Shown in pieces: positions 2,516 to 41,950 of a DNA stretch of 64,000 bases (its first letter is position 1; each line of letters starts with the position of its first letter). The translations under genes were made by a program, and so were the position numbers. Source of the stretch: Brevibacillus agri (GTDB lineage Bacteria; Bacillota; Bacilli; Brevibacillales; Brevibacillaceae). The DNA lies in the NCBI RefSeq assembly GCF_004117055.1, contig NZ_CP026363.1:2100001-2164000 (forward strand). The letters are read 5' to 3'. The notes under the pieces were generated by a model. The model saw nothing but the letters and a program-made list of their open reading frames with translations. It searched no databases and was not told the origin of the DNA.

Positions 2516-3315
2516 CGAGCATGATTCAAAGACGGTACGAAATAAACGATGAACAGTGGGAACAAATTCAGGACATGTTCCCCCCCTATCGAACAGGACG
2601 TCCGTCCAAATTAAGTAATCGTACCATGTTTAATGCCATTCTTTGGATTGCCCGAAGTGGTGCGGCTTGGCGAGATTTGCCGGAAGAACGTTATGGTTCA
2701 TGGAAAACGGTCTACAGTCGCTTCTGCAAGTGGAGAGATACCGGATTACTTGTCGCCATCTTCCAAGCTCTTCACGTAGAACCTGACTTTGAAAACTTGA
2801 GCATCGATTCTACATCGGTCAAAGCTCATCAACACAGTGCGGGTGCTAAAAAAACGCAGAAGGACACGAAGTAAATCAGCACATAGGCGTCAGCCGTGGC
2901 GGAAAGACAACCAAACTTCATACCGTCGTCGATGGATTAGGGAATCCCCTCGCTTTTCTTCTCACGGGGGGGCACGTCTATGATTCCGTTCCAGCGATCA
3001 ATTTGCTTCAAGGGTTTGATCTTACGGGAAGCCATATTGTTGGTGACAAAGCCTACGGCTCAGAAGCCATTCGGCATTGGATTACGGCTAAGCAGGCAGC
3101 GTACACCATCCCGCCTAAAGCGAATAATAAAAATCCTTGGAAAGTGGATTGGTACCGCTATAAAGAACGGCACTTGGTGGAGTGCTTCTTCAATAAAATC
3201 AAACATTTTCGACGAATCGCTACTCGTTACGACAAGCTGGCCAAATCATTCCTAGCGTTTGTATATGTCGCGTCCATCTTTAAACTAACTCAATAATGAG
3301 TTTTCAGACACATCC
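2458..3315 (+). mobile_element. IS5-family (IS427-group) insertion sequence, copy 1
   Basis: 858 bp bounded by 16-bp inverted repeats, GGACGTGTCTGAAAAC on the left and GGATGTGTCTGAAAAC on the right when read inward, with one mismatch. It is flanked by a TA target duplication (2456-2457 and 3316-3317), as is usual for the IS427 group. A second copy of the same length lies at 21455-22312. I find three base differences between the copies (2690, 3067, 3155 here), so one or both moved recently. This copy interrupts the histidine kinase gene. Confidence 0.93.
2521..3296 (+). CDS. IS5-family transposase made by -1 frameshift (copy 1)
   Basis: Two overlapping frames. The first runs 2521-2874 (MIQRRYEIND...), carries the N-terminal DUF4096-type domain and the first catalytic Asp (LSIDSTSVKAHQH), and stops at TAA 2872-2874. 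The second ends at 3296 and carries the second Asp (VGDKAYGS) and the Glu (HLVECFFNKIKHFRR). An A7 run at 2848-2854 lies in the overlap. Slipping back one base there gives one continuous protein of about 258 aa with a complete DDE set and the linker SRGGKTTKLHTVVDG normal for this family. An ATG at 2482 lies upstream in the promoter region and is less likely to be the start. Expression by frameshifting is inferred from the family. Confidence 0.9.
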
Positions 3316-3366
3316 TAAAATTTTCCGTGAAACGTTCAATAGATTAAGCGTCACAGTCTCCACCAT
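3316..3366 (-). pseudogene. Severed 5' end of the histidine kinase gene
   Basis: On the minus strand, ATG at 3366 opens a frame reading MVETVTLNLLNVSRKIL, which enters the IS right end after 17 codons. A ribosome binding site (GTGGGGTGG) lies about 8 nt before it. Deleting the IS plus one TA joins this frame without a gap to DLAPRITTIW of the kinase at 2455 and below. It is therefore the original N-terminus cut off by the insertion. Confidence 0.82.
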
Positions 3367-3469
3367 CGCATTATCCACCCCACTAAAATCGTAAGGGAAA
3401 AGGGTAAGATTAGACAAGGTATAATTATCCCGATTTCGCGATAAAATGTTTTTTTGTGGGATTTTTTTA

Positions 3470-3500
3470 TTGACAAAATCCGCTGAAATACGCCTTTATT
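3470..3500 (+). promoter_or_regulatory. Possible sigma-A promoter for the TerC gene
   Basis: TTGACA at 3470-3475 is a perfect -35 box, and TTTATT at 3495-3500 is a weak -10 with a 19-bp spacer. A second possible -10, TAGAAT, lies at 3543-3548. No yybP-ykoY manganese riboswitch is recognisable in this leader. Confidence 0.4.
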
Positions 3501-3582
3501 CGGAAAAATATTCAATCATGAGTCCGATTCTAGTCGCATAAAGTAGAATGGACAAACATTTACATGGACCAGGGAGGCAGGG

Positions 3583-4233
3583 ATGGGAGAGCATTTTTGG
3601 CTGGGTCTGGTGCATATTTTCATGATTGATCTGGTGTTGAGCAGCGACAATGCTGTCATCATAGGTATGGCTTGTCGGGGCTTGCCTCTGCGGGAGCGAA
3701 GCCGTGCTGTCCTGTATGGAACGATCGGGGCTGTTGTCCTGCGAATCGGGTTGACGGGCGTGACGACCTGGATGCTCGATATTCCGCTTGTCAAGGCGGT
3801 CGGGGGAGGACTGCTCTTATGGATTGCCATCAAGCTGATGGTGAGCAACCAGGAGGAAACGACAGAGGTAGCGCATAATCAGACAATCGGCCAGGCGGTC
3901 AGAACGATTATATTGGCGGATTTTGTAATGAGCCTGGATAATGTTTTGGCGGTTGGTGGAGCGGCGCATGGCGATATATGGCTGGTTTTGCTTGGACTGG
4001 GAATGAGCATTCCGCTGTTAATGTGGGGAAGCACATGGGTCGCCAGGCTTATGAACCGTTTTCCAGGCCTGGTCATTCTCGGCGGCGGGGTGTTGGCCTT
4101 TACAGCGGTGGACATGTGTCTCGAAGACCCGTACGTGTGGAAATGGATCAATCCGCTGATGCTTAACCACATGTGGCTCCCGGCCATTGCCTCGGCAGCG
4201 ATCATGCTGTGGGGACGGATGAAAAGGGCCTGA
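3583..4233 (+). CDS. TerC-family membrane protein (YjbE-like, probable Mn2+ export)
   Basis: 216 aa with about seven hydrophobic segments. It carries the two family signatures, DLVLSSDNAVIIGMA near residue 16 and ADFVMSLDNVLAVGGA near residue 112, whose acidic residues lie in membrane helices and are thought to handle the metal. Length and motifs match B. subtilis YjbE-type TerC proteins, which are linked to manganese efflux and to metallating exported proteins. GGGAGGC-type spacing before ATG supports the start. The gene stands alone between the IS-interrupted kinase and the YkoP-like gene. Confidence 0.85.
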   Translation: MGEHFWLGLVHIFMIDLVLSSDNAVIIGMACRGLPLRERSRAVLYGTIGAVVLRIGLTGVTTWMLDIPLVKAVGGGLLLWIAIKLMVSNQEETTEVAHNQTIGQAVRTIILADFVMSLDNVLAVGGAAHGDIWLVLLGLGMSIPLLMWGSTWVARLMNRFPGLVILGGGVLAFTAVDMCLEDPYVWKWINPLMLNHMWLPAIASAAIMLWGRMKRA

Positions 4234-4307
4234 AGAGGTAATGAAAGGAAGCGATACTGGGGAATACTACAAACAAAGTAAACATCGCTGGAAAGGAACC
4301 GTTGCAC

Positions 4308-4889
4308 ATGAACACAAATCTCTTGATGCTATGGGGATACTGGGATGAAATCTACCAACGGTGCACCAGACTTACCTACATCGAAAAAGGGAACAACATC
4401 TTCCGGGTCGTTCCCTTGCGTTATCGGGGGGAGACATTACGCACGTCAGACGAGCGGACCATTCATGACGGCGATCTGATTTTGAAAATACATATTCACA
4501 ACTATTACTTTGCTACGCTCTGCCGGGGAGTGCAGGACGAGCTGCGGGTCGCCTTGCTGTTGCGCAGGCATATTTTGCAGTCGCTGCCCAGGTTGGCCGC
4601 CTTTCTGGAAGCGATGGAGGAGCGGGAGCAAATCAAAGGAATCGTAGGCACAACCATGCTGCACAAAGGAGTCGCCCCGCTGGGCTTTTCCATCTCGGAC
4701 GTGCCGATGAACTGGTTTTTCCGCTACAAGCGTTGGTACTTGCGGCTCATGCTCAGGCTGGTTCATCCCAACGGCAAAAGACGGGTGCAGACGTGGAAGC
4801 ACGACATGCCGCTAAAACGGGTCTACATGTCCAAGGAGTTGTTGCTTGCGCGTTACGGACAAGGCGCGTCGACAGGAGATACGCTTTGA
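4308..4889 (+). CDS. YkoP-like protein
   Basis: 193 aa, soluble and rich in Arg and Leu. It resembles B. subtilis YkoP, whose gene also accompanies a UgtP-type glycosyltransferase gene (ykoN). The reaction is unknown. ATG at 4308 is preferred because AAAGGAA lies about 10 nt upstream; an in-frame TTG at 4302 is too close to that site. The stop codon TGA (4887-4889) overlaps the ATG of the glycosyltransferase at 4889, so the two genes are translationally coupled. Confidence 0.7.
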   Translation: MNTNLLMLWGYWDEIYQRCTRLTYIEKGNNIFRVVPLRYRGETLRTSDERTIHDGDLILKIHIHNYYFATLCRGVQDELRVALLLRRHILQSLPRLAAFLEAMEEREQIKGIVGTTMLHKGVAPLGFSISDVPMNWFFRYKRWYLRLMLRLVHPNGKRRVQTWKHDMPLKRVYMSKELLLARYGQGASTGDTL

Positions 4890-6043
4890 TGGCCAAACGT
4901 TTTTTACTGGTCACCGAGGAATGGGCAGGCAGTGGGCATCGGGTAGCGGCAGAGGCGCTTCAGGAGGTTTTGCAAAAAATGGACGGTGCGGAATCAGCCC
5001 GGGTGATCGGAGGCTTACAGACAGCCAGCCCGGGTTTGCGCGTGCTGTCCCGTTTTTTTTATTTCAACATGCTCAAATACGCCAAGCCCATCTGGCACAG
5101 CATGTACGAACAGGATGAGATGTGGGGAAAGTCGCTGTCCAAGCCGCTTGGCTGGTGGCTCTCGACGCGACTGCTTCGGCGGGTGCTGCAGGCGGAACAG
5201 CCGGACGTCGTAATTGCGACGCATGCCTACTGCCTGTCGGCGCTTGCCTATGCGAAGAAAAAGGCGGACAAGCCGTTTCGGTTGGTCAGTGTGCCGACTG
5301 ATTTTCACATTAACCGCTTTTGGGTAGATCCGCAGATCGACGCTTATATGGTAGCGCATGAGCAGATGGCAGAGCGGCTGCAACGGCGCTACCAGATCCG
5401 CCCGGAAAAAATTCACGTCTGCGGCATTCCGATCCGCCATGCGTTCAGCCTGGCAGAGAAGACGGCCAGGCACGAGTGGAAAAAGCGGCTGGGAATTGCT
5501 CCGGAGCGCTTTACGGTGCTGATCGGCGGAGGCGAGGGCGGCTACGGTCAGATGGAAGAAGTCATTCGCGCTTTGCTCACAGAGGAGGAGCCGCTGCAGG
5601 TCGTCGCGCTAACCGGAAAAAATGCCCGCCTAAAAAAGCAGTTGGAGGCAGAGCAAGCGCACAGCGGCCAGCGGCACCAGCTTGTCGTCAAAGGCTTTGA
5701 AGACTGCATGTGGCAGTGGATTGGCGCGGCAGACGTGTACGTGACCAAGCCCGGAGGCATTACGTGCGCGGAGTCGCTCGCTTTGCGGACGCCGCTGATC
5801 CTGTACCAGCCGCTGCCCGGTCAGGAAAGGCATAACAGCGCTTTTCTCACGCAGCAAAACGCAGCCGTGCTGGCGAGTACGCCGCAGGAAATCCGGGAGA
5901 TTATCAGGCGCTGGCGCCACTCCGATCAAAAGGATAGGATCGCCCGGCAGATGGACAAGCTAAGGCGTCCGGCAGCGGCTACCCATATCGCTGAGCTGCT
6001 TTTTCAACTGGAGTCTAAATTTGGAAATGAAAAAGGCGAATGA
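4889..6043 (+). CDS. MGDG synthase/UgtP-family glycosyltransferase (YkoN-like)
   Basis: 384 aa, GT-B fold of family GT28. The N-terminal acceptor domain starts MAKRFLLVTEEWAGSGHRVAA, with the glycine/His motif typical of UgtP and plant MGDG synthases. The C-terminal donor domain holds LIGGGEGGYGQMEE near 213 and VTKPGGITCAESLALRTP near 290, the nucleotide-sugar binding site. The family transfers sugars from UDP-sugars to diacylglycerol or other envelope acceptors. The real acceptor here cannot be read from sequence. It is coupled to the YkoP-like gene and followed by a spore protein gene. Confidence 0.85.
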   Translation: MAKRFLLVTEEWAGSGHRVAAEALQEVLQKMDGAESARVIGGLQTASPGLRVLSRFFYFNMLKYAKPIWHSMYEQDEMWGKSLSKPLGWWLSTRLLRRVLQAEQPDVVIATHAYCLSALAYAKKKADKPFRLVSVPTDFHINRFWVDPQIDAYMVAHEQMAERLQRRYQIRPEKIHVCGIPIRHAFSLAEKTARHEWKKRLGIAPERFTVLIGGGEGGYGQMEEVIRALLTEEEPLQVVALTGKNARLKKQLEAEQAHSGQRHQLVVKGFEDCMWQWIGAADVYVTKPGGITCAESLALRTPLILYQPLPGQERHNSAFLTQQNAAVLASTPQEIREIIRRWRHSDQKDRIARQMDKLRRPAAATHIAELLFQLESKFGNEKGE

Positions 6044-6067
6044 ACAACGAAAACTTCACACATATTA
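6038..6067 (+). promoter_or_regulatory. Candidate sigma-G promoter of the SASP gene
   Basis: GAATGA at 6038-6043 and CATATTA at 6061-6067, 17 bp apart, fit the sigma-G pattern GHATR-N18-CATNHTA. The site overlaps the end of the glycosyltransferase gene. It predicts expression in the forespore, as expected for a SASP. Confidence 0.6.
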
Positions 6068-6097
6068 AACCTACCAACGACGAGGAGGTGATTACAG

Positions 6098-6301
6098 ATG
6101 GCTAACAACAACCGCTCTAGCAACAATCTGGTGGTTCCTCAAGCAAACCAAGCGCTGGACCAAATGAAGTATGAAATCGCTTCTGAATTCGGCGTTCAGC
6201 TTGGTCCGGACACCACTTCCCGTCAAAACGGTTCAGTGGGTGGCGAGATCACAAAACGTCTTGTTGCCTTCGCTGAACAACAATTGGCTGGCCGTGGCTA
6301 A
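6098..6301 (+). CDS. Alpha/beta-type small acid-soluble spore protein
   Basis: 67 aa with a SASP signature: an Asn/Gln-rich N-terminus, [15 protein letters not shown] containing the Gpr protease site (after the Glu of EIASEFGV), and [16 protein letters not shown] at the C-terminus. These proteins coat spore DNA, shift it towards an A-like form and protect it from UV and heat, then are degraded at germination. GAGGAGGTG lies before ATG. A terminator follows at 6318-6348. Confidence 0.97.
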
Positions 6302-6317
6302 TTGCATAGCTGGATGA

Positions 6318-6348
6318 GGGAAGGCACCTGCGGGTGTCTTTCCTTTTT
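6318..6348 (+). terminator. Terminator after the SASP gene
   Basis: GGAAGGCACC and GGGTGTCTTTCC form a hairpin with a TGC loop, followed by TTTTT. Confidence 0.85.
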
Positions 6349-6402
6349 CATGCATATAGAATTATTTGGAAACAAGTTACAGAAAAAACGGCAAACTCGA
6401 CC

Positions 6403-6432
6403 GCATATTTTCAGCGTGAGAGGCTGATTCTA
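6403..6432 (+). promoter_or_regulatory. Candidate sigma-G promoter of the spoVA-type operon
   Basis: GCATA at 6403-6407 and GATTCTA at 6426-6432 with an 18-bp spacer fit GHATR-N18-CATNHTA with one mismatch in the -10. The predicted start, near 6439, puts the ribosome binding site GGGAGGTG very close to the 5' end of the RNA. Confidence 0.45.
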
Positions 6433-6456
6433 TAGGTGTTGGGAGGTGAAAGGATT

Positions 6457-6663
6457 ATGACAGTTGGAGCACAAGTAAAACAGGCGCTTGCCAGCCTGAA
6501 GGGTGCGCAGGCAGATTTGGAGTCGTTCGCGCTTAGCACGCAAAACAAGCAAGCGAAGCAACTGTACACAGAAGCTGCCGAGCAAACCCAAACGATTGTG
6601 AACAACCTGCAGCAACGCGTGACAGAGTTGGAGAACGAAGAGCCACAGTACAAAGGCTTCTAG
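6457..6663 (+). CDS. DUF1657 protein, first gene of the spoVA-type operon
   Basis: 68 aa, helical, starting MTVGAQVKQALASLKGAQAD. It belongs to the DUF1657 family, whose members accompany DUF421 and spoVA genes in spore formers, including the mobile spoVA2 operon linked to spore heat resistance. Its function is unknown. The same domain recurs fused to the C-terminus of the next protein. GGGAGGTG lies before ATG 6457. Confidence 0.85.
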   Translation: MTVGAQVKQALASLKGAQADLESFALSTQNKQAKQLYTEAAEQTQTIVNNLQQRVTELENEEPQYKGF

Positions 6664-6675
6664 CCTGCTGTGAAT

Positions 6676-6712
6676 GAGGGAGAGGGACTCCCTCTCTCTT
6701 GGCTTTTCTTTT
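6676..6712 (+). terminator. Hairpin with T-rich tail inside the operon, possible partial terminator
   Basis: GAGGGAGAGG and CCTCTCTC form a short-loop hairpin followed by TTGGCTTTTCTTTT between the DUF1657 and DUF421 genes. It could lower transcription of the downstream genes. Confidence 0.4.
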
Positions 6713-6733
6713 AAGGGCTGACGGAGGTGGAGC

Positions 6734-7594
6734 ATGCCTGACTGGTTCAATATTTTGCTACGCTCGCTGGGAGCGCTGGCATACTTGTTTATTCTGACGA
6801 AAATCATTGGAAAGCGGCAAATCAAGCAGCTTTCGCTCATTGAATACATCGTCGGCATTACGATCGGCTCCATCGCTGCCTTCATGGCGACGGAGATAGA
6901 CGGACCGATTGTTCACAGTCTGATTGCCATGGGTGTTTTTGCGATTGTCCCTGTCCTGATGGAATGGCTGACGCTCAAAAGCAAGGTGCTGCGCGACTTT
7001 TTCGAGGGCAAGTCGACCGTTCTTATTAAAGAAGGGAAAATTTTGGAGGACAATCTGAAAAAGGAACGTCTCACGGCGGAAGATTTGCTGGAGCAACTGC
7101 GAATCAAAAACGTGTTCCGGGTAGCGGACGTGGAGTTCGCCCTGATGGAGACAAACGGGGAACTGAGCGTGCTCTTGAAGTCCGAGAACCAACCCGTGAC
7201 GCCGCAGCAGTTGGAATTGACCGTGTCGCCGGCAGAAGAAAACCAGGTCGTCATTATGGATGGCGTCATCATGGACGAGCCGTTGGCGACAGCGGGCTAC
7301 AATCGCCGTTGGGTGCGCACGCAATTGCAAAAAGCGGGCGTGGCGCTGGAGAACGTGTTTCTCGGCCAGGTCGACAAAGGCGGCGAGCTGTACCTCGATT
7401 TGTATGACGACAAAATTCAGGTGCCCGCCCCGCAAGCGATGAAGCTGACGTTTGCGACACTGAAAAAATGCCAGGCCGATCTGGAGCTGTTTGCCCTTGC
7501 GACGAAAAGCGAAGAGGCCAAACAGACTTATCAGCGTGACGCGGAGCAATTGCAGCAAGTCATCGACCAATTGAAGCCGTTTTTGATACGGTAA
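6734..7594 (+). CDS. DUF421 (YetF-type) membrane protein fused to a C-terminal DUF1657 domain
   Basis: 286 aa. Residues 1-75 hold three hydrophobic segments with KIIGKRQIKQLSLIEYIVGITIGS. Residues 80-220 form the soluble DUF421 domain. The last about 50 residues (FATLKKCQADLELFALATKS onwards) align closely with the separate DUF1657 protein encoded just upstream (LASLKGAQADLESFALSTQN). DUF421 proteins are common in spoVA operons and their role is unclear. The fusion is good evidence that the two families act together in the spore membrane. GGAGGTGG precedes ATG. Confidence 0.88.
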   Translation: MPDWFNILLRSLGALAYLFILTKIIGKRQIKQLSLIEYIVGITIGSIAAFMATEIDGPIVHSLIAMGVFAIVPVLMEWLTLKSKVLRDFFEGKSTVLIKEGKILEDNLKKERLTAEDLLEQLRIKNVFRVADVEFALMETNGELSVLLKSENQPVTPQQLELTVSPAEENQVVIMDGVIMDEPLATAGYNRRWVRTQLQKAGVALENVFLGQVDKGGELYLDLYDDKIQVPAPQAMKLTFATLKKCQADLELFALATKSEEAKQTYQRDAEQLQQVIDQLKPFLIR

Positions 7595-7612
7595 AAAAGG
7601 AGTGAGAGAAAA

Positions 7613-8086
7613 GTGGCGGATCAAAAAAAGAAGAATCTGACCCCCGTGCAGCAAGAGTATCAGCAGTTGGCGATGCGCCATGAGCCTAAGCGTCCGCTCG
7701 TGCGCAACTTCATCCGCGCCTTTTTCGTGGGGGGCCTCATCTGCCTGATTGGCCAGGGGATTACAGAGCTGTTCATCCGATACTTTGACTTTACCGAGAA
7801 AACGGCCGGAAATCCGACAGTCGCTGTCCTGATCCTGCTTTCGGCGCTGCTCACAGGGCTGGGCGTCTACGACCGGATTGCGCAATGGGCGGGGGCGGGC
7901 ACGAGCGTTCCGGTGACCGGCTTTGCCAATTCGATCACCTCAGCCGCCATCGAGCACCGCAGCGAAGGACTGGTGCTGGGCGTCGGCGGCAATATGTTCA
8001 AGCTCGCTGGCTCCGTCATTGTGTTTGGTGTTGCTGCCGCATTCGTCATCGGTCTTTTAAAAAAGTTGTTTACGATGGGAGGGTGA
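7613..8086 (+). CDS. spoVAC: Stage V sporulation protein AC
   Basis: 157 aa with about four membrane segments after a charged N-terminus. It carries the family pattern VRNFIRAFFVGGLICLIGQ and VPVTGFANSITSAAIEHRSEG. SpoVAC sits in the spore inner membrane, behaves as a mechanosensitive channel and passes Ca2+-dipicolinic acid. It has a GTG start with GGAGTGAG upstream and precedes spoVAD and spoVAE in the same order as in B. subtilis. Confidence 0.95.
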   Translation: MADQKKKNLTPVQQEYQQLAMRHEPKRPLVRNFIRAFFVGGLICLIGQGITELFIRYFDFTEKTAGNPTVAVLILLSALLTGLGVYDRIAQWAGAGTSVPVTGFANSITSAAIEHRSEGLVLGVGGNMFKLAGSVIVFGVAAAFVIGLLKKLFTMGG

Positions 8087-8089
8087 CGC

Positions 8090-9094
8090 ATGCGCCAGGG
8101 CCATCAGTCGTGGGTGTTTCCCTCCAAGCCGGTTATTCTCGGCCACGCTGCCATCGGCGGGCCATTTGAAGCACAGGGGCCGTTGGCAGAGGATTTCGAT
8201 ACGCTGCACGGGGACTTGATGATCGGTCAGGAGAGCTGGGAAAAGGCGGAAAAGGTGCTGCTGGAGGAAGCGTGCTCGAAAGCCATCGAAAAAGCGGGGC
8301 TGGCGAAGGAGCAGATCAACTTTTTGCTCGCAGGCGATTTGATGAACCAGATCATTTCCGCCAGCTTTTCCGCCCGCACGCTGGCGATCCCGTTTCTCGG
8401 CATTTTCGGGGCGTGCTCGACCGCCATGGAAGGCTTGGCACTGGCTGCGCAGCTCGTGGACAGCCAGGCGGCGGACTGCGTGCTCGCGGCGACGTCCAGC
8501 CACAACGGGGCGGCAGAAAAGCAATACCGCTACCCGACAGAGTACGGCTCCCAGAAGCCGCCGACCGCCCAGTGGACGGTTACGGGAGCAGGAGCAGCGG
8601 TCGTCGGCAACAAAGGTAAAGGCTTGCGCATAGCAGGCGCCACGATTGGCCGAGTCGTGGACATGGGGATGACCGATCCGTTCAACATGGGGGCGGCGAT
8701 GGCTCCGGCTGCGCTGTCGACGATCGAAACGCATTTTCGCGACTTCCAGCTCCCGCACGACCACTACGACCTGGTGGTAACGGGAGACTTGGGGAAAGTG
8801 GGGCATGCGATTTTGTCGGAACTATTGCCTAAACATAACGTGATGGTGCCGCTGCAGCGCTACATTGATTGCGGGAAGCTCATCTATGGAGACAACCCGA
8901 ATGTCTGGTCCGGAGGGAGCGGCTGCGGCTGCGTTGCGACCGTTACATATGGCCACCTGCTGCGGAGGATGAGCGCAGGCGAATGGAAGCGGATGCTGGT
9001 GGTGGCGACAGGCGCGCTGCTATCGCCCATCTCGTATCAGCAAGGGGAGAGCATCCCTTGTGTCGCACACGCCGTGGCCATCGAGTCCGAGTGA
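8090..9094 (+). CDS. spoVAD: Stage V sporulation protein AD
   Basis: 334 aa, a thiolase/KASIII-like fold. It includes [21 protein letters not shown] with the family cysteine, [11 protein letters not shown] and a C-terminal [14 protein letters not shown]. SpoVAD is a peripheral inner-membrane protein that binds dipicolinic acid during its uptake into the forespore. The ribosome binding site (GGGAGGGTG) lies inside the end of spoVAC, with only a 3-nt gap between the genes. Confidence 0.95.
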
Positions 9095-9110
9095 CCTGGA
9101 GAGTGATAGC

Positions 9111-9461
9111 ATGACGTTTTTATGGGCGTTTCTCGTAGGGGGAATCATTTGTGTGATCGGCCAGTTTCTCATGGATGTCGTCAAGCTGACACCGGCGCAT
9201 ACGATGTCATCTCTGGTGGTCGCCGGGGCGGTGCTGGACGGCTTCGGGCTGTATGAGCCGCTCGTCCAGTTTGCCGGGGCAGGCGCTACCGTTCCCATCA
9301 CCAGCTTCGGCAATGCCCTCGTCCACGGCGCGATGGCCGAAGCAGAGCAGCACGGGCTGATCGGCATTGTGACCGGCATTTTTGAAGTGACCAGCGCAGG
9401 CATATCGGCGGCGATCGTCTTTGGCTTTTTCATGGCCCTGATCTTCCGGCCAAAAGGCTAA
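9111..9461 (+). CDS. spoVAE: Stage V sporulation protein AE
   Basis: 116 aa, nearly all membrane-embedded, with three to four hydrophobic segments. The motifs [17 protein letters not shown] and [17 protein letters not shown] parallel those of SpoVAC. Together AC, AD and AE form the minimal dipicolinate transport set. ATG at 9111 fits the protein family better than upstream in-frame ATGs that overlap spoVAD. Confidence 0.93.
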
Positions 9462-9562
9462 AAGAGGAAAAAGCGCGTCATATGTTACCTGTGCTGCCAA
9501 AATGCTTGAATTGAACCTACTTTCGCCAGCTAGTAGAATGGTGGCGTAAGGAGGGGATGTTC

Positions 9563-10210
9563 ATGTCATGGATGAAAAAAACATTGACGACCCTGCTCGC
9601 GGCGATGCTTGCCGTCGCGTTTGTTTGCCCTGCTGAATCTTTTGCTGCGCCGCTCTTGAAGCGAGGCAGCGAGAGCGGGGATGTGTGGGATTTGCAGTAT
9701 CGTCTGCAACTGTTGGGGTATTATACGGACCGGCTGGATGGCAGCTACGGAGCGAACACCGTCCAGGCAGTCAAAAAGTTTCAAAAAGCATACGGACTGC
9801 CAGTCGATGGCGTCGCTGGTACAAATACATGGCGGGCGTTAAAAAAAGTATCGGTCAATCGAAACGAGATGCAAATGCTCGCCCAGTTGGTCTATTCAGA
9901 AGCACGGGGAGAAAGCTTTACCGGGCAGGTGGCCGTCGCGGCGGTAGCCCTGAACCGTCTGAAGTCCAAAGACTTTCCGAACACGCTCAAGGGAGTCATT
10001 TTCGAGCCGTACGCGTTTACGGCGGTCATTGATGGACAGTACTGGTTGAGCCCCAACAAGACGGCCTACCGGGCCGCATGGGAAGCAGTAAGAGGCTGGG
10101 ACCCAACCAATGGTGCGCTCTATTACTTCAATCCATCGACCGCCACCTCCAAATGGATCTGGTCTCGTCCGCAAGTCGTGAAGATCGGCAAGCATATTTT
10201 CGCCAAATAA
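9563..10210 (+). CDS. SleB-type cell wall hydrolase with peptidoglycan-binding domain
   Basis: 215 aa. A signal peptide (about residues 1-30, cut after AESFA) is followed by a PG_binding_1 domain (about 32-95, GSESGDVWDLQYRLQLLGYY) and a Hydrolase_2/SleB domain (about 105-215, LAQLVYSEARGESFTGQVAV) with the catalytic Glu in SEARGES. SleB enzymes are lytic transglycosylases that cut spore cortex at germination. The domain order fits SleB, though the protein is shorter than the B. subtilis one and no ypeB follows. ATG 9563 has AAGGAGG 8 nt upstream; ATG 9557 is too close. Confidence 0.88.
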   Translation: MSWMKKTLTTLLAAMLAVAFVCPAESFAAPLLKRGSESGDVWDLQYRLQLLGYYTDRLDGSYGANTVQAVKKFQKAYGLPVDGVAGTNTWRALKKVSVNRNEMQMLAQLVYSEARGESFTGQVAVAAVALNRLKSKDFPNTLKGVIFEPYAFTAVIDGQYWLSPNKTAYRAAWEAVRGWDPTNGALYYFNPSTATSKWIWSRPQVVKIGKHIFAK

Positions 10211-38320: not shown

Positions 38321-38480
38321 TATGCGGGCTTATTCCTTCGCAAATGGCCGGGCTTGCAGCTTTTCTTTTCAAAATAGACAAACACTTCACGGCTGGTAGG
38401 ATTTTTTTTCTTTTTGTAGAATAACTTCTTGATTCCCATTTGATTTGGCAAAAATGCCGATCACGAGAAGGAGAAAGTGC

Positions 38481-39473
38481 ATGAAACGGCCAACCTATAC
38501 CCTACCAAGTATTGTCAAGAAGGTATTCCGGTCCGGTGAGCGCTCCCTCCCACGTACGGAGATTTGTTCCCGGATGGAAGCGAATGAGCTGACTGCTTTG
38601 ATGGATCTGGACAGTTCGACACTACTTGATAAAGTGTTGAAGATGGAGCAGTCGCCAGTGCGGGTTGCCAGCTCGGAGGCGATTGTGGAGATCACCTACC
38701 AGCCTCATCAGGTGTACGACCTGGCGTATCGCTTTTTGCGCGACACGCAAGCGCCGAAAAAGCTGGAGCAGATCGTCGCAGAGCTGCGCCGTCAGACGCA
38801 GTTTGGCTGGAACCAGATCCTTCGCATGTTGCAACTGGAACGCGACCCTCGCTTTGTGCAGTACCAAGGTGACGACAGATGGTTTTTGGCAGAGTGGACA
38901 CAAGCGAATGACCAGGTGTACGATTTTTGCCGGGACAATGGTATCACGCAAGTAGCTGCCCGCTCGCTTGTTCATTTTTTGGAGCAAGAAGTGAGGATAG
39001 CGGCAGATGCTGCTTTTCTGCCCATGCTGGACGACCGTTTCCGGATTGAGGGAGATACGCTGTATATCATTGCGCGCAGTGATGTGACCGATGAGGAGCT
39101 GGCTGCGGAAGAAATCGCAGCGGCAGACTCTTCTGAATCGATAGCCATCATCGAGAATGAAACAGAGGAAGTTGCCCCCGAATCAGTGAATCTTTTGCAG
39201 CAGGCAACCGAACAGCAGGAACCAATTTTTACCAAGGAGGAAACGAACATGACAAACGCTACGAACACGCGAGTGCTGGAGGAAGTACAACAATTGCTGC
39301 AACAGGCGATCAGCCGCCTGGAAGGCCGCAACCAGGAGATGTCCCAGGAGGTTGTCGCCCATTTTCAACAAAGCAATATGCAAGCTATAGAAGTGCTGAT
39401 GAAAGAGAAACATAAGCATGAGCAGATCGTGCTTGGCATTCAGCAAGTACTGGCGACCAGTGAGCAACAATGA
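38481..39473 (+). CDS. Protein of unknown family, 330 aa, first gene of the SEC-C cluster
   Basis: Soluble. Residues about 85-140 (LEQIVAELRRQTQFGWNQIL then DPRFVQYQGDDRWFLAEW) look like a winged-helix domain of the HARE-HTH type, which suggests nucleic-acid binding. A long acidic linker (DEELAAEEIAAADSSESIAI) leads to a C-terminal coiled coil (LEEVQQLLQQAISRLEGRNQ). ATG 38481 has GGAGAAAG upstream. Its stop overlaps the next start. The domain guess is from pattern only. Confidence 0.7.
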   Translation: MKRPTYTLPSIVKKVFRSGERSLPRTEICSRMEANELTALMDLDSSTLLDKVLKMEQSPVRVASSEAIVEITYQPHQVYDLAYRFLRDTQAPKKLEQIVAELRRQTQFGWNQILRMLQLERDPRFVQYQGDDRWFLAEWTQANDQVYDFCRDNGITQVAARSLVHFLEQEVRIAADAAFLPMLDDRFRIEGDTLYIIARSDVTDEELAAEEIAAADSSESIAIIENETEEVAPESVNLLQQATEQQEPIFTKEETNMTNATNTRVLEEVQQLLQQAISRLEGRNQEMSQEVVAHFQQSNMQAIEVLMKEKHKHEQIVLGIQQVLATSEQQ

Positions 39474-39742
39474 GTAAGCTTGAGGCCACGATCCGGTTGG
39501 AACAGCGATTTGATTTGCTGCGCGACGTCATCGCGAGTTATCGGATTCGCCTTCAAGACATGGAGCAGGAAGTGGTGGAACTTTTTGCCGCCAACCAGCT
39601 CTCTGCTATTTCTGCATGCATGAGCGAGAAGCAGCGCATCGTCCGGTTGATGAACCGCCTGGAGCTGTTTATCAGCCAATGGGAAGGCAAAAGTGATGTG
39701 GGAATCGCTCATGAACCAAAACGAGAACACTTGAACACATGA
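39470..39742 (+). CDS. Small coiled-coil protein, 90 aa, second gene of the SEC-C cluster
   Basis: MSKLEATIRLEQRFDLLRDV and EQEVVELFAANQLSAISACM form two long helices. It resembles an assembly or adaptor subunit. It overlaps the preceding gene by ATGA and lies 81 bp before the SEC-C gene. The family is not known to me. Confidence 0.7.
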   Translation: MSKLEATIRLEQRFDLLRDVIASYRIRLQDMEQEVVELFAANQLSAISACMSEKQRIVRLMNRLELFISQWEGKSDVGIAHEPKREHLNT

Positions 39743-39823
39743 TGGAAAATGCGGTAAAATAGGGGGATTGTGCAGGATTCCCCGCGCATGCCGCGTGGGA
39801 TGGAAAGGAGATCCAAACCCTCT

Positions 39824-41893
39824 ATGTCAGTAGGAAGAAACGAACTGTGCCCTTGCGGGAGCGGAAAAAAATACAAGAAATGCTGTGGGGTAGTCACTCC
39901 GATTGCGGAGCTGCGCAGCCGTCACGAGCAAAAATTGCAGAAGGAATACGCGGGCTGGGTGGAGCGCCTGAATCATTTCGTTGGCGGCAATGTGACCAGC
40001 GAGACGATTCAGGAAGCGCGCAGCCGGTTTTCGGCAGAAGTCGGCCTGACCGAAGAAGAGGTCACGCGTCCAGAGTGGGCCGCGCATTTCTTCAACTGGT
40101 GTGTCCTGGATGTAAGAACAGGCGGAAGCACGTTGCTTGAGAACTACATCAAGCAGCACGGTCGCCGGATGGAGCCTGATCTTCGCCGTGCTTTTGCCGA
40201 CTTGCATCTGAATGTGTACGAAATCATGGAGGTTGAGCGGGATGTCATGACCGTTCAACAGCCGCTCACGCTGGAGAAGCATTACATCCTGCGATCCAAC
40301 AGCCTGAGCGTCATGCCTGGGCAAATCATCGTGGGACGTCTCTTGAACCTGGGGCTGCGCAACATGCTGTTTTCCGGCAGCATCATTTTGCAGCCGCACG
40401 TCAAGGACAGCTTGCTGGAATGGCTGAAGGAGCATCCGGAAGTCGAAGAAGCGGCGGCCGACACGAGCAAACGGGTGTACACCACGGCGCTGTACCGTTT
40501 TATTGTCCAGTTTGGCGGAACGGACAACGGACAGGCAGGAGCGGGCCAAAGCTCCTTGCTCCGTCGCACGTATCCGTTGCAAAATCGCGAGCAACTGCTC
40601 AAGGCGATTGAGGCAAACCCTGCTTTCGAACTGAAAAAGTCCGACGGTACAAAAGAAGTGTGGGTGTATGCCACGCGCAAGGAAGAGCACCTGTTCCCGG
40701 CTTTGAAGGATGCGCTCCTGGAGCTGTATGAAGTGCAGGCAGAGGTGCTGCTTGAGGATGACAAGCTGTATCTGGAAGGATACGCACCGGATCTGGAGGA
40801 AGTAGCGCAGTTGCTGTTGCTGCTTGCCTACGAGCAGGAGGAAGAGATTCGCGTCCTGACCTCGACCGGCTCCAAGCTGTCCAAAGGCACCTTGTTTATT
40901 ACCAGCCAGCCTACGCTGCCGCCGAAGGTTTTGCAGTGGGCCGTGCAAACGTATTTTGCGGAAAAATGGCTGGTGACGCCACACGAAGCGTTGGAAGAGC
41001 TGGCCCCTGTCCTGGTTGCGGCAACCGACAGCAAAGAGCTGCACGCCAAGCTGGAGAGCCTGCTGGAGCAGTTGGAGCAAGACCATAAAGTAGGACAAGG
41101 CCTTGCGCGCTACATTCGGATGGATATGTTGCGCCCGCGTCTGTCGCTTCAAAACGACAGCCTGCACGTGAACAACCTGCTCACCCGCCCGCTGATCGAA
41201 GGCTTGCCGGAGAGCGTGTACACGGTCCACCCGGACAGGCTCGCCGACATCAACCGCTTCGTTCAGGAGATGACGGACGGCAAGTCGGAAGCAACTGTCA
41301 AAAAGTACGACGAGGTTATGAACAACTTCCGCTCTTTTGTAAGAGGCGCGTTCGGTCCTTCGTTTACATGGGAACAACTGCGCAAGGAAGATCTGGCTTA
41401 CTTCCTCGTGCACGATATTTACACACGCGCGGATGCCGTGACGAAGACGTTGGCAACGAACCTGTTGTCGGTCATGACCGCTTTCTTCAAATGGCTGGAC
41501 AAGCACAGCAAGACAAGCTTGCATGCGAACATGCAGTCCTTGTTTGCCGAGTTGAAAGAAAGCTTGCCGGAAGCCTACCGCATGCGCGGTCTGCTGGAAA
41601 AAGCAGCGAACCAGAATCTGTACGGCCAGGCGACTGTGCCGAAGGATGTCGCAGAAGAAGCGCTGGTCGTGCTTGGCGCCGACGCCGACGGTTTGGTAGT
41701 CAAACGCCCTGACGGCGAGAAAATGACGCTGGCTGTAGCGGCAGATGTGAAAGACGTGCTGACATCTGACTGGATCGTCTCCGGTCTGGTCGGCAAAGGC
41801 GAGGACGGCCTCTGGCGCCTGTATGGCACGCCTGAGCTGTACCCGCCCGTCATTGCCCAACTGCTGGGAGTGCGGACTGGCGTGTTGGTCTAA
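39824..41893 (+). CDS. Large SEC-C motif protein with an integrase core-binding-like region
   Basis: 689 aa. The N-terminus is a SEC-C zinc motif, MSVGRNELCPCGSGKKYKKC, with Cys9, Cys11, Cys20 and Cys21. The middle is a long helical/beta region without recognised domains. Residues about 475-565 (INRFVQEMTDGKSEATVKKY, LRKEDLAYFLVHDIYTRADA, LLSVMTAFFKWLDKHSK) resemble the SAM-like core-binding domain of tyrosine recombinases, but no catalytic R-H-R-Y domain follows. AAAGGAGAT lies 11-12 nt before ATG. It is the last gene of a three-gene cluster and is followed by a terminator. Confidence 0.75.
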   Translation: MSVGRNELCPCGSGKKYKKCCGVVTPIAELRSRHEQKLQKEYAGWVERLNHFVGGNVTSETIQEARSRFSAEVGLTEEEVTRPEWAAHFFNWCVLDVRTGGSTLLENYIKQHGRRMEPDLRRAFADLHLNVYEIMEVERDVMTVQQPLTLEKHYILRSNSLSVMPGQIIVGRLLNLGLRNMLFSGSIILQPHVKDSLLEWLKEHPEVEEAAADTSKRVYTTALYRFIVQFGGTDNGQAGAGQSSLLRRTYPLQNREQLLKAIEANPAFELKKSDGTKEVWVYATRKEEHLFPALKDALLELYEVQAEVLLEDDKLYLEGYAPDLEEVAQLLLLLAYEQEEEIRVLTSTGSKLSKGTLFITSQPTLPPKVLQWAVQTYFAEKWLVTPHEALEELAPVLVAATDSKELHAKLESLLEQLEQDHKVGQGLARYIRMDMLRPRLSLQNDSLHVNNLLTRPLIEGLPESVYTVHPDRLADINRFVQEMTDGKSEATVKKYDEVMNNFRSFVRGAFGPSFTWEQLRKEDLAYFLVHDIYTRADAVTKTLATNLLSVMTAFFKWLDKHSKTSLHANMQSLFAELKESLPEAYRMRGLLEKAANQNLYGQATVPKDVAEEALVVLGADADGLVVKRPDGEKMTLAVAADVKDVLTSDWIVSGLVGKGEDGLWRLYGTPELYPPVIAQLLGVRTGVLV

Positions 41894-41919
41894 CCAACAG
41901 CTTGATCGACAAACAAACA

Positions 41920-41950
41920 AAACCCGGGGAAAAGGCTCCTCGGGTTTTTT
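41920..41950. terminator. Terminator between the SEC-C and MFS genes
   Basis: AAACCCGGGG and CCTCGGGTTT form a hairpin with T runs on both sides, serving the two convergent genes. Confidence 0.85.

Follow-up and report, generated by a model that had tools for sequence, protein, structure and literature searches.

A stretch of 64,000 nucleotides from Brevibacillus agri (contig NZ_CP026363.1, positions 2,100,001 to 2,164,000 of the forward strand; hereafter the window, to which coordinates refer unless a genome is named) contains three tightly packed genes, here called genes 1, 2 and 3, and raises the question of what these genes make and which of them belong together. The initial annotation read them as an unrecognised cluster encoding a winged-helix-like protein, a coiled-coil adaptor and a protein with a SEC-C motif and an integrase-type core domain. 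As judged from sequence, the gene 1 and gene 2 pair probably makes three proteins (a long form of the gene 1 product, a predicted short form and the gene 2 product), because gene 1 carries a conserved internal start signal and gene 2 is paralogous to the gene 1 hairpin from the internal methionine onward. This internal start was overlooked initially, as were an RNA polymerase delta-type domain, a sigma-H-like promoter box and a helicase partner. Throughout, "the family" means the Brevibacillus family of the window genome (G000); the other GTDB families are labelled f12, f13, f14, f19, f22, f27, f28 and f36, and loci and genomes carry L and G numbers.

Gene 1 (38481..39473, forward strand) encodes a long form of 330 residues. 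At the border between its linker and its C-terminal hairpin lies an internal Shine-Dalgarno (SD) sequence, AGGAGG (39235..39240, forward strand), followed by an in-frame ATG (Met257) from which a 74-residue hairpin protein, the short form, is predicted (39249..39473, forward strand). We scanned gene 1 homologues for the strongest in-frame combination of SD and start codon per gene, excluding the gene's own start, considering start codons only and scoring against what we take to be the anti-SD letters. Among 55 homologues from nine GTDB families, 53 had this combination 64 to 100 codons ahead of the stop. The start codons picked in the 55 were ATG in 50 and GTG in 5 (in L034 a GTG and then an ATG), and all six further loci had an SD-like site plus a start in the same region (ATG in four, GTG in two). 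A free energy (dG) of -10.3 was reached by 47 of the 55 internal sites, against a background of 14 of 2578 internal in-frame ATG or GTG codons in 193 other open reading frames (ORFs). The site in the window is weakly folded, with 181 of 200 shuffles folding at least as well. At four loci of f36 the short form would have 92 to 96 residues rather than 74. The 61 loci are not independent events, as they represent nine families and 36 of them come from one.

Gene 2 (39470..39742, forward strand) overlaps gene 1 by 4 nucleotides (ATGA) in the ORF listing and encodes a hairpin protein of 90 residues. A gene 2 profile was found in all 39 same-family genomes searched, and in 27 of them it also matched the gene 1 hairpin. 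In a whole-genome search of the window genome, position 1 of this profile aligned exactly at 39249 and the match ran through 39470 (E 7.0e-7); comparison of gene 2 with the gene 1 hairpin by hhalign, with the slice cut at the internal methionine, gave E 7.7e-14. By these alignments gene 2 is a paralogue of the C-terminal hairpin of gene 1, which gives a more specific identity to the protein first taken for a coiled-coil adaptor. The likely origin of the pair is a duplicated small hairpin gene, the upstream copy having joined a winged-helix gene in frame without losing its own start signal. Both the paralogy and the conservation of the internal start signal are well supported, and we are confident of this anatomy of genes 1 and 2, dual start included. 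Profile libraries returned only weak matches for the two window genes, and a PDB sequence search with gene 2 gave eleven matches, all at E 0.077 or worse.

We then considered how far the three genes are kept together. The order 1-2-3 was present in 36 of 36 family loci read, with gene 3 in pieces at one of them (L036), and gene 3 matches occurred in all 36 same-family genomes searched (a broader tally of 57 of 60 includes matches in other families, mostly to SEC-C alone). These counts for gene 3, together with the presence of gene 2 in all 39 family genomes searched, show that the gene set is not a chance arrangement. The family members that carry names are all Brevibacillus species except for a record labelled Anoxybacillus sediminis; gene 3 was intact in 24 of 25 named loci, which overlap the other family genomes and add no further evidence. 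The record in question, strain PCH 117 (L096), carries the trio in its Brevibacillus form and should probably be placed with that genus. Outside the family we read 26 of 35 gene 1 loci; the nine left out include the doubtful G070, which like G266 resembles a match to winged helices only. Gene 2 lay directly behind gene 1 in 25 of these 26 loci (19 of 20 plus 6 of 6), the exception being a 777-residue protein (L083) that has a HARE-like part without the hairpin and was excluded from the tallies. At the 20 outside loci checked for it, gene 3 did not adjoin the pair. The conserved unit is, on this distribution, genes 1 and 2, with gene 3 a neighbour specific to the Brevibacillus family. The trio proposed initially as a unit is fixed in order within that family and was not seen as a unit beyond it. 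A phylum-wide search with a broad profile matched 12 of 398 genomes, the window genome included, mostly over the winged-helix part alone. Related winged-helix parts occur in G272 and others in other classes; the G272 protein (L118, 403 residues), read whole, had no hairpin match.

The architecture of gene 1, by model, is well supported. The AlphaFold2 model has a mean pLDDT of 80.4, with every 10-residue block at 85 or more up to residue 200, and consists of three winged helices (residues 1-75, 76-140 and 141-197, the second of HARE type), an acidic linker at about 200-256 (disordered over 201-258) and a helical hairpin (257-330). A winged helix had been noticed initially; the model divides that single part into three domains. 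The linker holds 17 aspartate or glutamate residues versus 1 lysine or arginine, and it was acidic in all 19 gene 1 sequences measured. The third winged helix is absent from the f14 and f22 homologues read. The second winged helix, as a family profile, matched 23 RNA polymerase delta proteins in hhalign with a probability of 96.2 (E 2.2e-9), and a distant gene 1 homologue (L082) scored 32.8 bits with PF05066, above the cut-off of 25.9; PF05066 matched at E <= 0.01 in 2 of 26 homologues. This domain is, by profile comparison, homologous to the HARE domain (PF05066) of delta. In Foldseek, the gene 1 model found a Staphylococcus aureus RNA polymerase chain, which we take to be delta, with a probability of 0.97, although the E-value was weak at 0.32; neither the gene 1 nor the gene 3 model had a match at E <= 0.001, and a PDB sequence search with gene 1 gave a single match at E 0.54. 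Delta has an acidic tail, and gene 1 likewise combines a HARE-type winged helix with an acidic disordered stretch, at a distance downstream. It differs from delta by its three winged helices, hairpin, internal start and partner gene. The hairpin superposes on the ESCRT-III/CdvB-type structure 6tz9 (Z 10.3, root-mean-square deviation (rmsd) 0.8, 74 residues aligned), with a Z that does not reach the caution level set by the tool for helical hairpins and that is equalled by the arms of seryl-tRNA synthetases. Among the matches listed only the hairpin is covered, no sequence support was found, and we set the resemblance to ESCRT-III aside as generic.

The surroundings of the pair offer hints about when and with what it works. 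Ahead of gene 1 in the window lies a sigma-H-like promoter box (AGGATTT-N11-GTAGAAT, 38398..38422, forward strand), which matches a strict pattern, AGGAWWT-N10-12-RNNGAAT, based on what we take to be the sigma-H consensus. Of the 36 family loci, 29 carry the strict pattern ahead of gene 1 and 35 carry a relaxed pattern, set post hoc, versus 0.027 expected per 130 bp; in the one miss (L024) the locus starts within the box, with the -10 part visible. Across the 64-kb window the strict pattern occurred three other times on the plus strand and never on the minus strand. Looser boxes, some with GAA rather than GAAT, preceded gene 1 at all seven loci examined in f14, f22, f28 and f36 and at four of five further loci of f14 and f22 (none at L170). 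In the same four families, all 12 loci read have a helicase of the PcrA/UvrD/Rep type that begins where gene 2 ends or close by, read as a whole ORF in seven and over the P-loop region only in five. The neighbourhoods themselves are well supported. Three of these helicases, when profiled, had PcrA as top match, below its cut-off, and scored far lower to HelD; one genome (G135) has an additional PcrA-like protein at another locus.

Gene 3 (39824..41893, forward strand; 689 residues) comprises SEC-C, helical, OB-like, alpha/beta, integrase core-binding and C-terminal beta regions. A program-made ORF list starts it at GTG 39770; the ATG at 39824 is most likely the start, because AAAGGAG is kept before it in all 36 family loci printed, leaving a gap of 81 nucleotides after gene 2. 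The gene is followed by an intrinsic terminator (41919..41948, forward strand, dG -18.4, z -2.83). The packing described initially, with three tightly spaced ORFs, an ATGA overlap, this gap and a terminator, was borne out. So were both domains named in gene 3. The SEC-C zinc motif (39836..39889, forward strand) matches PF02810 with E 2.3e-9 and 37.4 bits against a cut-off of 20.4. The core-binding (SAM-like) domain (41231..41590, forward strand, residues 470-589) matches NCBIfam XerC with E 7.3e-5 over profile positions 10-108 of 295 and the structures 3nrw (Z 10.6, rmsd 2.7, 99 residues aligned) and 3lys (Z 9.6). The catalytic domain of tyrosine recombinases is absent, since the profile matches end at XerC position 108. 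The model has an OB-like region at 127-189 and an alpha/beta region at about 244-342 (tied matches, Z 7-8), and it runs on into the beta region after the core-binding domain. Structure search did not assign gene 3 to a known enzyme family; no enzyme fold was recognised in the model, at a size where single domains can escape notice, and a PDB sequence search found SEC-C-type chains plus two weak unrelated chains. We infer that the protein probably binds nucleic acid, perhaps via several domains.

By sequence similarity gene 3 is part of a wider SEC-C family in Bacilli, seemingly uncharacterised, whose members (353-661 residues) are encoded elsewhere, whether or not the bacterial family has the gene 1-2 pair. 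Among 13 such proteins read, 12 had SEC-C, 10 the core-binding part and 9 both. Gene 3 is longer, and this kind of protein was seen adjoining the pair only in the Brevibacillus family. In two other families relatives stand, as read by eye, just before a secA-like gene (L135, L137); there, at about 2800-9760, a shorter SEC-C protein lies between hpf-like (ribosome hibernation factor) and secA-like genes, with intervening ORFs in L137. Other gene 3-like SEC-C proteins come just after VanW-type and 3D/Rpf-type cell-wall-like genes (L126-L131, L136, L038, also by eye), a neighbourhood that looks conserved in several other families.

How might the pair work? We propose that genes 1 and 2 are one old module yielding three proteins. 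The long form would carry its three winged helices on the flexible acidic linker, with the hairpin at the end; the second ribosome-binding site would yield this hairpin alone, and gene 2 a diverged copy of it. The two small hairpins may co-assemble with that of the long form and so set the number of arrayed winged-helix arms, which would bind DNA or, via the delta-type HARE domain, RNA polymerase. Sigma-H would drive transcription of the module as growth ends or in early stationary phase, at least in some families. The complex might then aid either a PcrA/UvrD-like helicase (in some families) or the SEC-C/OB/core-binding protein (in Brevibacillus) in clearing or protecting DNA that carries stalled complexes. 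That the start is used, how the proteins assemble, what they bind and what they do are all inferred here. Hairpin-driven assembly of delta-like arms is proposed by analogy with YscQ and with the HelD-delta pair. YscQ-C, the product of an internal start, is required to assemble full-length YscQ (in the excerpt available of PMC4295842), and Cas11b is likewise a short internal-start product, of the Cas8b gene (in the excerpt available of PMC11899642). In both, one gene yields a full-length protein and a small C-terminal product, and as SctQ-C has the stand-alone homologue FliN, so the gene 1 hairpin has gene 2. The proteins are unrelated to those described here; in the present case the stand-alone paralogue is encoded immediately after gene 1, and the short form is a prediction. 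In the recycling of RNA polymerase, delta acts together with HelD, a relative of UvrD (according to the part of PMC7749165 available), and some families here likewise place a delta-type winged-helix protein beside a superfamily 1 UvrD-related motor, which scores best to PcrA and far less to HelD, and which was not seen adjacent in Brevibacillus. We put forward the whole mechanism, with hairpin-assembled delta-like arms on DNA or RNA polymerase aiding the helicase or the gene 3 protein, tentatively and as somewhat short of probable. More doubtful is its most specific form, a stationary-phase assembly of Bacilli in which the internally started hairpin and gene 2 polymerise the delta-like protein and feed the helicase or SEC-C protein to remove stalled complexes.

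Several observations weigh against this proposal. The charges of the three winged helices are +1, +1 and -4, none strongly positive. The window gene 1 protein alone gave no Pfam HARE match and stayed far below the cut-off of the delta equivalog TIGR04567 (17.5 bits versus 42), and the genome has a separate, true delta gene (G000:C1:968997-969236). A sigma-H-like box was not evident in f12, f13, f19 and f27, where matches were intragenic or chance-like; no helicase motif was seen on the coding strand at the loci examined in these four families, nor beside the pair in L084-L115 with flanks of up to 8 kb. Within the class, gene 1 matched 55 of 250 genomes, 20 of the Brevibacillus family and 35 outside it. 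As to the internal start, L026 and L073 have a stronger SD plus start elsewhere in the gene, and the site in L073 is the weakest, with dG -7.8. With the protein held fixed, about 21% of synonymous shuffles per gene had an SD at least as strong as the observed one. Much of the SD signal is thus carried by conserved amino acids, and an acidic E-E motif conserved ahead of the hairpin accounts for much of it.

The internal SD could be a mere by-product, arising from conservation of an acidic peptide ahead of the hairpin, and the pair would then make two proteins only. Acidic residues are common at this position and shuffled genes often retain a fair SD; the synonymous-codon test over the nine families, which gave p 0.008 with family medians and p 0.0035 with one author-chosen gene per family, reached only p 0.031 when each family was represented by its worst gene. 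The site is nevertheless kept in genes without the third winged helix and behind a broken upstream frame (L167), and the match of the gene 2 profile to gene 1 begins precisely at the internal methionine. In addition, 6 of 61 genes (L032, L036, L067, L081, L169 and L170) have at this position a valine coded by the start codon GTG, modest evidence given that the scan looked only for start codons. We regard the by-product explanation as quite improbable. Another reading keeps three proteins and gives them a role in chromosome organisation, with arms that bind DNA only, hairpins that bridge or spread the complex on the nucleoid entering sporulation, and no contact with RNA polymerase. Three tandem winged helices with an oligomerisation-type hairpin, the sigma-H-like box, and the OB-like and core-binding folds of gene 3, often found in nucleic-acid-binding proteins, would fit it. 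However, the helicase neighbour suggests repair or clearance, none of the winged helices is basic, and the only one with a demonstrable sequence relative is the one related to RNA polymerase delta; we consider the chromosome-organisation reading unlikely.

Whether gene 3 belongs to the mechanism at all is close to an even question, and we lean slightly towards its doing so. It could be functionally separate and merely downstream: a sigma-A-like promoter (TTGAAC-N18-TAAAAT, 39731..39760, forward strand) precedes it, the pattern recurs in 21 of 36 family loci, and homologues occur elsewhere, in families that have the pair and in families that lack it. The promoter overlaps the end of gene 2, whose LNT tail encodes TTGAAC, and in the genus gene 3 may also be expressed alone. 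Moreover, gene 3 is broken in two genomes in which genes 1 and 2 were found, into two pieces about 1.3 kb apart in G139 (C1:1043996-1047340) and into two overlapping ORFs in G026 (L036). Its separation is opposed by the invariant gene order in the family and by the terminator-like sites, none of which was listed on the coding strand between genes 2 and 3. Phage defence or another conflict system, suggested in the initial annotation, finds some footing in the combination of DNA-binding-type domains and in the occurrence of HARE winged helices also in restriction endonucleases, as the Pfam name of PF05066 records. We saw no sign of it and consider it very improbable, since gene 2 and the gene order are constant in the family where defence islands are patchy, no match to a nuclease was observed, and PADLOC and PHROGs matches were weak or around SEC-C (in PADLOC none for gene 1, one weak AbiEi match for gene 2 at E 0.026 and six matches for gene 3, all around SEC-C).

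The mechanism we favour, assembly of delta-like arms by hairpins, would concern a module that is real, conserved and apparently undescribed. In searches of open-access papers on HARE-HTH proteins, on SEC-C with tyrosine recombinase and core-binding domains, on the SEC-C motif in Bacillus and on internal starts in Bacillus and Brevibacillus, nothing among those listed was recognised as this module, and the initial view of the locus as a tightly packed set of nucleic-acid-binding-type proteins, with no description in these searches, holds. If the proposal is true, two genes that lack a curated family name and occur in nine GTDB families of Bacilli would encode a three-subunit machine with a built-in means of setting the ratio of its subunits, and these bacteria would possess a second delta-type factor, tied to helicases and to the stationary-phase programme.

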